Assembly: GCA_034509925.1 (NCBI GenBank)
Contig: CM067535.1
Span: 2,663,501 to 2,727,500 of the forward strand
DNA: 64,000 nt
Direction: 5' to 3'
Origin: Hirudinaria manillensis
Taxonomy: Eukaryota > Annelida > Clitellata > Hirudinida > Hirudinidae
The notes beneath the pieces are model-generated. The model did no database searches and was not told where the DNA came from. It saw only the letters and a program-made list of their open reading frames with translations. Of this stretch, positions 20-64,000 are shown one piece after another (position 1 is the stretch's first letter; each line of letters starts with the position of its first letter). A program made the translations under genes and the position numbers.

Positions 20-2048
20 AGAATTTAGCCTATAAGAGGTCAACATTTGAAAATGGCATTGAGGGTAAAATTACTGATAGGACCGTTGACGGAAGGAATA
101 ATTCCTGTGTCACCATTGAAGCATCTCCAGATTCAGAATCATTCACGCCATGGTGGAGCATACTATTAGATGGAATCTACTTTATAAAAACCGTTACAGT
201 GTACTATAATCCCAATTACTCACGCGGTTATTTCTCCTATTTATTACATTTCAAATTTCTTTTCACGAATAATCATTTCAAAATGATTTAATAATAATAT
301 CATTTGATCTAAACATTAATAAATCGTTTAATTATCTAGTAGTGTCATCTTATCATGGGAACATTTCTTTAAACAAAATAAAAATGACATAATCGATGCC
401 CAACAAGGTCCAATTTGTTAAGTTAGAAGAAATTATCTTAACTTCAAGTGGACCATGCAAAAATGACTTTGCAAACGACAGAAATGTCTGCAGTTCTGGC
501 CTATTTGTTAAAGTTGCGTGTTCAGACCTCTTAGATCAAGGTTAATTTTATTTTGAATTTTCTAATTTATGAGGCCTAATTTACCAAACATTGCCTTAGG
601 ATTAAGTAAAATTGTTAAATTTTACGAATTGGCTAGACTTTATTTTTCAGACATATTGTAGGTTGCGGTCTGCGAGGTTATCCTGATTCGTCTCTGCAAT
701 ATGTAATCAATGGGGATGTGGCTGAGAGAGGTGCCTGGCCATGGCACGTTCAAGTGATTGTCCGTCAAAGCAAGGTTTGCGGAGGGAGCATACTAAATTA
801 TCACTGGATTCTCACTGCGGCACATTGCATATCGTAATAAATTAATTTAAATAAATATTTTTTAATAAAATTTATTAGAGCTATTAATATAATTTTTTAA
901 ATGATATTGAAACAGCGACGTAAATAACATCTCTATGGTGAAAGTCAAATATGGCACAAACATACGCAACGATCCTGGTGTTGAGGGTCATGGAGTGACT
1001 ACGCTTGTTGTCCATCCAAACTATACAGAATTTACAGCCTTGATGACATAGCCTTAATAAAAATCAAACATCCAATCATGTTTAATATTTTTACCAAGCC
1101 AATTTGTTTGCCCAGGAAGCATTATAATGACACAAAGTTAAAATCATATCGCTATTGTATTATAACTGGGTTCGGAAGTGTTGATAGAAGTTTAGATTTG
1201 TTTCTAAATATGTGGATATTATTTATTTATTTATTTATTTATTTATTTATTTATTTATTTATTTATTTATTTATTTATTTATTTATTTATTTATTTATTT
1301 ATTTATTTATTTATTTATTTATTTATTTATTTATTTATTTATTTATTTATTTATTTATTTATTTATTTATTTATTTATTTATTTATTTATTTATTTATTT
1401 ATTTATTTATTTATTTATTTATTTATTTATTTATTTATTTATTTATTTATTTATTTATTTATTTATTTATTTATTTATTTATTTATTTATTTATTTATTT
1501 ATTTATTTATTTATTTATTTATTTATTTATTTATTTATTTATTTATTTATTTATTTTTAGCATATGGTTCTAGGAAACCAGAACGTTTGAGGCAAGGACG
1601 AATGGATTTAATGACTAATGACGATTGTTTAAGAAATCTGAGAAATGACACTCGTGATGATTATGATGCCAATCTGGCAACAAACAAATTAGTCTGTGCA
1701 GGTTCGATACCAACAACATTCGGAATTAATAGCTGCAGGGTTAGAATAATTTTATTTTTATATTTCTAATATTTCATGGAAAAGTTCTTCGTTAATTTCC
1801 GCTTCCAACTCTCGGATTTGCAAACTATTTATAAAGAAGTTTATAGTCTCTAGTTTATAAATTGATAGATTGATCTTTAGGGTGACAGCGGTGGCCCTTT
1901 GGTCTGCAAGAATGAAAATGGTATCTGGACTCAGATTGGAATCATGATGTCTTATTATAAAGGAAGAATTGTAGAACACTGTTCTAACAGTATATTTGCA
2001 AGAGTCAGTCATCATTTGGATTTCATCGGATATGTTATCTACAATTAA
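20..2048 (+). pseudogene. Gene A: 5'-partial FTP/trypsin gene with a frameshift
   Basis: Exons seen: 20-226 (first exon of an FTP fucolectin-like domain, with the WWS and VYY core), 427-540 (Cys-rich linker like the end of an SRCR domain), 662-833 (trypsin start, QYVINGD then LTAAHC), 916-1189, 1561-1739 and 1881-2048 (GDSGGPLVC, stop TAA). All phases join except in exon 916-1189. That exon is 274 nt and one base short: frame changes between the VVHPN segment and SLDDIALIK near 1020-1045, and without the shift a stop follows. The catalytic His, Asp and Ser codons all remain. The other FTP exons, the LDLa repeats and most of the SRCR domain found in genes B and C are missing. Residue 189 is Asn. 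Upstream exons lie outside the window. It is either a decaying short copy or an intact short gene with one sequencing error. Confidence 0.65.
1218..1556. repeat. (TTTA)n microsatellite filling an intron of gene A
   Basis: About 84 uninterrupted copies of TTTA make up nearly the whole intron 1190-1560. The repeat also supplies the pyrimidine-rich stretch before the acceptor AG at 1559-1560. It produces long spurious open frames that are not genes. Confidence 0.97.
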
Positions 2049-2721
2049 AAAGGATGTCATTGAGAATGTTACTGAAAATATAATTCATAATTTTGTATAA
2101 TTAAAATAAATTGCTTAAAGAAAACTTGTGCTTGTTATCTCTCAAATCAAAATGAAAGTGTAAATTTTAAGTTTTAAATTATATAGAAAAGATAAATACA
2201 TTTGCCGATTATCTTTGAAGTAAGGCAGCTTTTTGTTAAACATTTAATAATTAATTTAATATATTTGATGATTTATTTCGTTAATAAAATATGAAATAAA
2301 ATATGTTACTTATAAATATCTCTTATTTTTAGATTTTATTTACATTTAAATGTACTAGCTATATAAAGCTTTATTAAAATTGAACGCTATTGAAAATTAG
2401 TTATGCCCAATTTAGAAAAACAAAATCTGTTAAAGTGTGACCTAATTCATTCAATTATTATTTTGAAGCGATGACTATCTTATCAATTTATAACGAATTA
2501 CGTACAATTAGAAACAAAGATAAATAAACTATTGTTTATTTACATCTCATAAATCATAATTTATTTGCTCATTGAGATCCAGTATAGTCTAGAATTTATA
2601 TTTAAGAATTTGTTGAGTCTAGTTTACCAGAATCAGTTTAAAGCCAATCAAATCATTATTAACGATATAGTCATTTTTTTAAATCATATAATCTAAAGCA
2701 ATCTTCTGTAAATAATACAAA
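2049..2721. other. Intergenic, gene A to gene B
   Basis: AT-rich spacer. An AATAAA at about 2105-2110 is a likely poly(A) signal for gene A. The remainder should hold the gene B promoter, but I see no clear core-promoter motif. Confidence 0.5.
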
Positions 2722-63900: not shown

Positions 63901-64000
63901 ACCATCATCGAGAAAACCCACCATCATCATTTAAATCCCTACGGGAAGAGGAGCCACATTTGTGATCTTCAAAGTAATTGTTATCATTTGAAATGAAAAC
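60901..64000 (-). CDS. Gene G: FTP-LDLa2-SRCR-trypsin pseudoprotease, 5' end outside window
   Basis: Exons from the window edge: 63922-64000 (partial FTP second exon), 63613-63735 (FTP third exon, LLFCEIEIF), 63134-63268 and 62949-63065 (two LDLa repeats), 62765-62879, 62451-62558 and 62300-62349 (SRCR), 61939-62131, 61588-61865, 61172-61362 and 60901-61071 (trypsin domain). All phases join. The catalytic centre is destroyed by substitution, not by frame damage: TAAYC gives His57 to Tyr, and GDTGSA gives Ser195 to Thr, Gly197 to Ser and Pro198 to Ala. Asp102 (HDLALI) and Asp194 remain, as do the structural cysteines. Residue 189 is His. The activation-type site is GQY|IIGG. The open frame over ten complete exons implies selection as a non-enzymatic protein, such as a decoy, cofactor or lectin-type binder (inference). 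Confidence 0.88.
63806..63882. repeat. (ATT)n/(GTT)n compound microsatellite
   Basis: ATT units passing into GTT units, in the intron between the last two visible FTP exons of gene G. Confidence 0.9.

Follow-up and report, generated by a model that had tools for sequence, protein, structure and literature searches.

What do the clustered mosaic genes of this leech locus encode, and does the union of a lectin-like domain with a protease domain mean that proteolysis is guided by sugars? The window, by which we mean the whole stretch of 64,000 nucleotides analysed here (C10:2663501-2727500, in a 148.4-Mb genome of 23 contigs from Hirudinaria manillensis), holds genes in which two F-type lectin-like (FTP) domains are followed by LDLa domains, an SRCR domain and an S1A protease domain. 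An original prediction, made from the letters of the window, saw there a clustered family of secreted, sugar-guided proteases. The family is real, and far larger and more diversified than that prediction saw: the claimed clustering extends to 63 family protease exons at C10:2.52-3.26 Mb plus five on C4, and the window shows no more than a small section of a tandemly expanded array. The explanation that we prefer, with a confidence a little better than even, is a tandem family of probably secreted FTP-LDLa-SRCR-S1A mosaics, which would bind surfaces or partners by something other than fucose, would be activated after a tyrosine, and whose dead copies would serve as cofactors, competitors or decoys.

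Domain order and extent of the array

The domain search on spliced models for which the original prediction had asked was made with Pfam on genes B and F, the query for F leaving out exons judged to be mis-modelled. Above the cut-offs it finds the FTP family PF22633 twice, the LDLa family PF00057 three times in B and twice in F, and the S1A family PF00089 once. The SRCR of B and F has no Pfam match and is recognized by profile only: searched against PDB sequences, a profile of nine SRCR sequences finds TMPRSS13 (E 4.7e-5) and TMPRSS2 (0.009), with weaker matches up to E 10 that include unrelated proteins. The architecture is real: two FTP are followed by two or three LDLa, then by a degenerate SRCR of TMPRSS type and last by an S1A protease domain. 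Of the five genes in which this order had been read, B and F have it in full and C has it with an insertion, but A does not have the full order and the first exons of G were not recovered.

TMPRSS2 and TMPRSS13/MSPL, which are type II transmembrane serine proteases, share the LDLa-SRCR-S1A order with the leech family, as well as the SRCR profile match. Unlike them, the leech family has added FTP domains, a signal-like first exon in some genes, a tyrosine at the activation site, no Asp189 and many dead copies. It is of the LDLa-SRCR-protease kind, with FTP added and other new features. The analogy with the proteases of the complement lectin pathway, which had also been drawn, is at most functional. 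MASP, C1r and C1s likewise bring a recognition module and an S1A domain together in one system, but the MASP layout is CUB-EGF-CUB-CCP-CCP-S1A, and Pfam reports no CUB, EGF or CCP in B or F at E up to 0.1.

Among the titles and abstract beginnings of part of our literature search results, we found no description of the FTP-LDLa-SRCR-S1A architecture. Passages of a survey of trypsin architectures report SRCR-trypsin proteins in a ctenophore and partner domains that are little conserved (PMC6767649), and the term lectin is absent from its text; an excerpt on transcripts of the oligochaete Olavius describes SRCR with trypsin and LDL receptor domains (PMC5117596). In Whitmania pigra, carbohydrate binding and proteolysis are reported among the functions enriched in expanded families (PMC8787918), which may or may not include this one; lectin, trypsin and SRCR are all absent from that text. 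As for the genome papers on H. manillensis itself, one has no lectin, trypsin or serine protease in its text (PMC10087013), another has no lectin or SRCR and trypsin twice (PMC6977106), and a third has trypsin five times, in excerpts that concern inhibitors (PMC10671345).

Protease exons found with the Pfam trypsin family extend far past the window on either side. A stretch of 262.5 kb joined around the window, of which 257.5 kb is readable, was scanned for each exon type with a position-specific profile made from the spliced model of gene B. The block order FTP a/b/c, FTP a/b/c, three LDLa, SRCR and S1A exons 1 to 4 is repeated across it, with units on the plus strand to the left and on the minus strand to the right. 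Many units lack one or more blocks at the thresholds used, and in three minus-strand units beyond the right end of the window the count is four FTP domains and two LDLa. One shuffled control gave zero matches for every block but the 13-residue SRCR tail, which we excluded from the evidence because it had eight.

The genome-wide counts are of exons, broken copies included, and each comes from one single query. With the first S1A exon of gene B there are 88 matches, of which 87 were tallied: the 63 of the C10 array (more exactly C10:2.518-3.257 Mb), the five on C4 (C4:10.62-10.66 Mb) and 19 elsewhere. A minus-strand FTP exon gives 101 matches, namely 96 in the C10 array, four on C4 and one on C11. 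An S1A exon was paired with an FTP match if the latter lay at most 9.5 kb upstream, on the same strand and with no other S1A exon in between. Such a partner exists for 49 of the 63 array exons, for four of the five on C4 and for none of the 19 others; random positions within the array have a mean of 21 and a maximum of 37 (1000 draws), even without the rule on intervening exons. The one C4 unit that was read, out of five, has the same domain order as the C10 array.

Does each unit make one transcript? Given the short gaps within units, the phase of the introns and the recurrence of the same order on C4, this is very likely, judging from gene structure. The median gaps inside a unit are 250 bp from FTP to LDLa, 155 bp from the third LDLa to SRCR and 654 bp from SRCR to the first S1A exon, and the final S1A exon is at least 644 bp away from the FTP block that follows, with a median of 1520 in the commonest case (n=15). 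Introns of phase 1, which are expected of shuffled extracellular modules, make up 276 of the 410 in pooled models. One may object that an FTP/LDLa gene and a separate S1A gene are merely neighbours that travel together as a tandem unit, and indeed the joint from SRCR to S1A is the widest inside the unit and reaches 5296 bp. However, part of that gap probably holds further short SRCR exons, the gap from FTP to LDLa goes down to 91 bp, and the same order recurs in the C4 unit, while SRCR-S1A occurs without FTP on C9. In our opinion two separate genes are therefore very improbable.

The genes on C9 are FTP-less LDLa3-SRCR-S1A genes with the same core as the array genes, including the tyrosine of the activation site and Asn189. 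They have a weak SRCR_2 match (8.7e-5, below cut-off), and no FTP was found on C9 with the query used, nor in the 9.5 kb read. In the S1A tree, which was drawn with a midpoint root, a branch with 100/100 support sets them apart. Since the C9 pair carries both residues, Tyr and Asn189 would predate the fusion with FTP, provided that the root separates the two groups. The family most probably originated when FTP exons joined an LDLa3-SRCR-S1A gene of the C9 type. A second concentration of PF22633 exons, at C11:1.7-3.3 Mb, was considered and set aside as separate F-type genes, because, at the threshold used, none of the blocks LDLa, SRCR and S1A shows up in the six short loci of about 3 kb read there (L031-L036). 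A further locus on C9 (L029, C9:3024946-3029286) shares 2871 bases, at 99.7% identity, with the first part of the mitochondrial contig, COX1 and COX2 included, and is either a recent nuclear mitochondrial copy or an assembly artefact. The mitochondrial contig itself (C23, 15,581 bp) has a COX1 that, as we read it, is compatible with AUA for Met and AGR for Ser, and its gene order, cox1-N-cox2-D-atp8-G-Y-cox3-Q-nad6-cob, is of the annelid or clitellate type.

Ligands of the FTP domains

The best solved relatives found with the FTP profile are FBP32 (2.6e-25) and the eel lectin 1k12 (7.2e-10), and with such F-type lectins the leech family shares its sequence profile, its tandem pairs and its calcium motif. 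In these lectins fucose is bound through the motif HX24RXDX4(R/K), with the triad His52, Arg79 and Arg86, and calcium through the motif h2DGx, as set out in passages of PMC5712786. In the leech domains we scored the His and the first Arg, counting from the conserved Trp pair; for the second Arg the loop is too variable in length. Among 48 FTP first exons, His occurs at the His position in none, and the first Arg position holds Arg in four and Lys in three, whereas in the eel lectin and in domain 1 of FBP32 the same count arrives at His and at Arg. A loose form of the fucose pattern is present in one of 45 domains, out of register; a loose form of the calcium motif is present in 40 of the 45. 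The fucose residues are lost in the FTP domains of this family, which also differ from FBP32 and eel agglutinin in being fused to a protease domain. Hence, the label of an F-type lectin need not mean fucose binding.

Proteolysis guided by sugars, as originally proposed, was not borne out. Guidance by the canonical F-type site we reject, since its fucose residues are absent in register, although other sugars could still be bound: F-type domains that depart from the fucose motif may have other sugar specificities, according to a passage of the same paper (PMC5712786). Together with the profile relatives and the calcium motif that is mostly kept, this is what can be said for the more general proposal that FTP domains recognize glycans via the F-type site and direct an enzyme that is active and trypsin-like towards glycosylated targets. 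Against it stand not only the missing His and the rare Arg but also the protease domain, in which Asp189 is found in none of 28 units and ten of the 28 are dead. We regard this proposal as improbable, and prefer that the FTP and LDLa modules would hold the protein on a surface or a partner via a ligand other than fucose.

The S1A domain and the role of the dead copies

The protease domain was read in the 28 units of the joined stretch that have protease exons. The residue before the new N-terminus (P1) is Tyr in all 27 units where it was read. Residue 189, identified by counting from Ser195, is never Asp and in 20 of the 28 units Asn; residue 226, as we place it from the last Cys, is never Gly and in 20 of the 28 Ser. 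TMPRSS-type proteases have a tryptic activation site with Arg or Lys before IVGG, and it is Asp189 that gives specificity for Arg and Lys. By eye, the ordinary trypsins L003 and L004 of this genome show an Arg at P1, Asp189 and the usual SWG. Since the array domains, unlike these two, have a Tyr at P1 and no Asp189, the label of trypsin describes their fold only. The TMPRSS/enteropeptidase-like core that had been claimed thus stands as a relationship (Pfam, the SRCR profile and the C9 genes all point to LDLa-SRCR-S1A), but not as a type of enzyme: trypsin- or enteropeptidase-like specificity is rejected on the evidence of both positions, and 10 of the 28 lack His57 or Ser195.

We would expect the competent copies to be activated by cleavage behind the conserved Tyr, which would call for a chymotrypsin-like rather than a trypsin-like activator. 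Once activated, the S1A domain would cleave with a non-tryptic preference. It would probably remain tied to the stem by a disulfide; the CG motif and the ICLP motif each have a Cys that is invariant in 10 aligned domains. We make no claim that the Tyr site shields these enzymes from the inhibitors of the leech, because some of those act on chymotrypsin as well as on trypsin, as excerpts of PMC10671345 indicate.

The catalytic apparatus was lost repeatedly. Counted by eye from a table of residues, twelve of the 28 units are canonical, with His57, Asp102 and Ser195 as well as Gly193 and Asp194; ten are dead through loss of His57, of Ser195 or of both; four are altered in spite of a complete triad (Gly193 changed in gene C, Asp194 changed in three minus-strand units); two, one of them gene A of the window, are incomplete or broken. 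On a tree of 30 protease domains, which leaves 12 of its 27 inner branches open, six changes are needed to account for the dead label, and well supported branches force at least two of them. One clade, with 100/98 support, consists of four dead genes from among the five leftmost.

There are signs of constraint in this dead clade. The ratio of nonsynonymous to synonymous substitution rates (dN/dS) was computed for 16 hand-chosen pairs and one added, which is not a survey. Within the clade, the rough ratios for the S1A domain are 0.27-0.37 in five pairs and 0.13 in the sixth; in the five pairs, FTP has 0.40-0.65 and LDLa 0.11-0.42 where computable. Because of these low values the dead proteases look maintained, so far as such comparisons can tell. 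The dS is unequal between domains of one pair (0.85 for FTP1 and 0.26 for FTP2), which hints at conversion between copies.

What might a maintained dead protease do? We suggest that the dead copies bind the same class of targets as the competent ones and act as cofactors, competitors or decoys. Insect serine protease homologues have other stem domains. They would resemble the leech proteins in function only; like these, they form large families that mix active and dead S1A domains (PMC10036332 and PMC4676143). It is tempting to go further and to see here a recognition system of the leech lineage with some 60 gene copies for secreted receptors that carry a protease domain, in which rebuilt FTP pairs would offer new binding sites and the S1A domains, active and dead, would make up a Tyr-activated, non-tryptic zymogen cascade with decoys, similar in design to the cascades of serine proteases and their homologues in insects or to complement, yet made of other parts. 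This extended version is a speculation that we consider unlikely as it stands.

An explanation that is compatible with our preferred one, and that we would call rather doubtful on present evidence, places these proteins in feeding-related secretion, as salivary or gut proteins diversified by blood feeding that act on host proteins or cells. The host of the array is indeed a leech, and passages on the salivary secretion of Hirudo list proteins with F5/8C domains and secreted LDLR-A proteins (PMC7191736). On the other hand, the same passages name metalloproteases of families M12, M13 and M28, and not S1A, as the major enzymes of the secretion.

Returning to the probably secreted mosaics with which we began, we have to state what weighs against them. 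Single transcripts, secretion, ligand binding, activation and function are all things that we infer from genomic sequence. An FTP match upstream, with the single FTP query used, is missing for 14 of the 63 array protease exons and for one of the five on C4, although some of these do have FTP blocks by the profile scan. The claim that the proteins are secreted without a membrane anchor is only partly sustained. An automatic scan proposes signal-like candidate first exons in front of 13 out of 27 units, including F but not B, which leans slightly towards secretion, but its control is noisy, since the opposite strand of these stretches yields 5 of 27. In gene B the hydropathy maximum is the signal peptide; still, 8 of 23 long models reach a 19-residue hydropathy of at least 1.6 inside the protein, so that some of the proteins may have a membrane segment. 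Of these eight peaks, three (up to 2.33) fall in the SRCR middle, where the models are poor, and the other five at the third exon of an FTP domain or shortly behind it. On balance secretion appears likely. As to the constraint, the ratios are rough, since dS is above 1 for three of the six pairs of the dead clade (1.37, 1.62 and 2.89). One recent pair has a dN/dS of 1.13 in S1A and of 1.24 in an SRCR piece of 30 codons, so some copies may lack a function.

Should each unit make a single protein, then one chromosome region of a medicinal leech contains a large family of protease mosaics, marked by an invariant yet unusual activation residue and by recurrent loss of catalysis, that does not figure in the titles and abstract beginnings among our search results. 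They would offer a tractable case of the joint diversification of recognition modules, enzymes and pseudoenzymes, and would be candidate proteins of immunity or of secretion.

Genes of the window and their neighbours

Genes B (2722-7693) and F (54279-59416) look complete, with the full order and both triads. Gene B, on the plus strand, begins with a signal-peptide-like exon at 2722..2782, which was missed by the automatic scan, picked by eye from the list of open reading frames (ORFs) and kept by spliced alignment. Its spliced model continues with FTP domain 1 at 3009..4057 (exons 3009-3209, 3375-3491 and 3907-4057), FTP domain 2 at 4448..5104 (4448-4642, 4754-4852 and 4973-5104) and three LDLa exons at 5181..5896 (5181-5285, 5592-5705 and 5783-5896), all supported by Pfam. 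The degenerate SRCR, to which the TMPRSS13/TMPRSS2 profile match belongs, lies at 6040..6446; its first exon (6040-6176) is well supported and its later short exons are uncertain. The S1A exons at 6682..7693 (6682-6853, 6919-7184, 7264-7445 and 7511-7693 with the stop) keep His57, Asp102 and Ser195, with Tyr at P1 and Asn189. Gene F, on the minus strand, reads FTP2-LDLa2-SRCR-S1A with a canonical triad in its spliced model, supported by Pfam. Its candidate signal-peptide exon, at 59769..59829 on the same strand, comes from the automatic scan with the opposite-strand control of 5/27.

Gene C (8652..15076, plus strand) is FTP2-LDLa3-SRCR-S1A in its spliced model, with the triad kept and Gly193 replaced (QDSGDP). 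Between its SRCR and S1A lies an insertion of about 1.5 kb, which carries an ORF of 397 amino acids on the minus strand (11822..13012) with a SAP domain (PF02037, E 1.1e-6) and internal repeats. This ORF is bounded on both sides by the same stretch of about 100 bases (11544-11648 and up to 13190), an arrangement that points to a mobile insertion.

Gene G (60913..64000, minus strand) runs off the window and reads as part of FTP, then LDLa2-SRCR-S1A; having Tyr for His57 and Thr for Ser195, it is catalytically dead as far as its predicted residues tell. The one stop in its model falls where the SRCR is poorly modelled. Gene A, on the plus strand, has a lone FTP first exon at 22..207 (C10:2663522-2663707; tblastn E 3e-5, open frame 1-288) and, at 432..2039, an SRCR tail with S1A exons of a truncated gene, seen in the ORFs and in a spliced model with three stops. 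In the 225 bp between the two parts there is no other FTP exon, no LDLa and no first SRCR exon. Its second S1A exon is frameshifted, which could be an assembly error, and one of its introns contains a long repeat of TTTA type. Two wrecks had been counted in the window. One is clear, namely gene D (15563..17289, plus strand), with FTP exons that contain stops followed by a remnant of the last S1A exon, but the second could not be identified. Long simple repeats that read LFIY and YYIIL lie at 1208-1570 and 3546-3779, in introns of genes A and B.

A candidate gene of another kind, PAN plus FTP-like, lies at 49715-50885 on the plus strand. Its PAN match has E 0.0013, below the Pfam cut-off, and the two open frames after it resemble an FTP domain by eye, ending in LCELQVFGTL and a stop, with no Pfam match for this FTP part. 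Inside the array, two large open frames at 28768-32255 on the plus strand encode INTS2 (Integrator complex subunit 2). They are flanked by ORFs for rhodopsin-type G-protein-coupled receptors, 78% identical to each other, at 20089-21681 on the minus and 42915-44477 on the plus strand. The opposite orientation of these two ORFs, together with the strand switch of the array around this core, suggests an inverted duplication.

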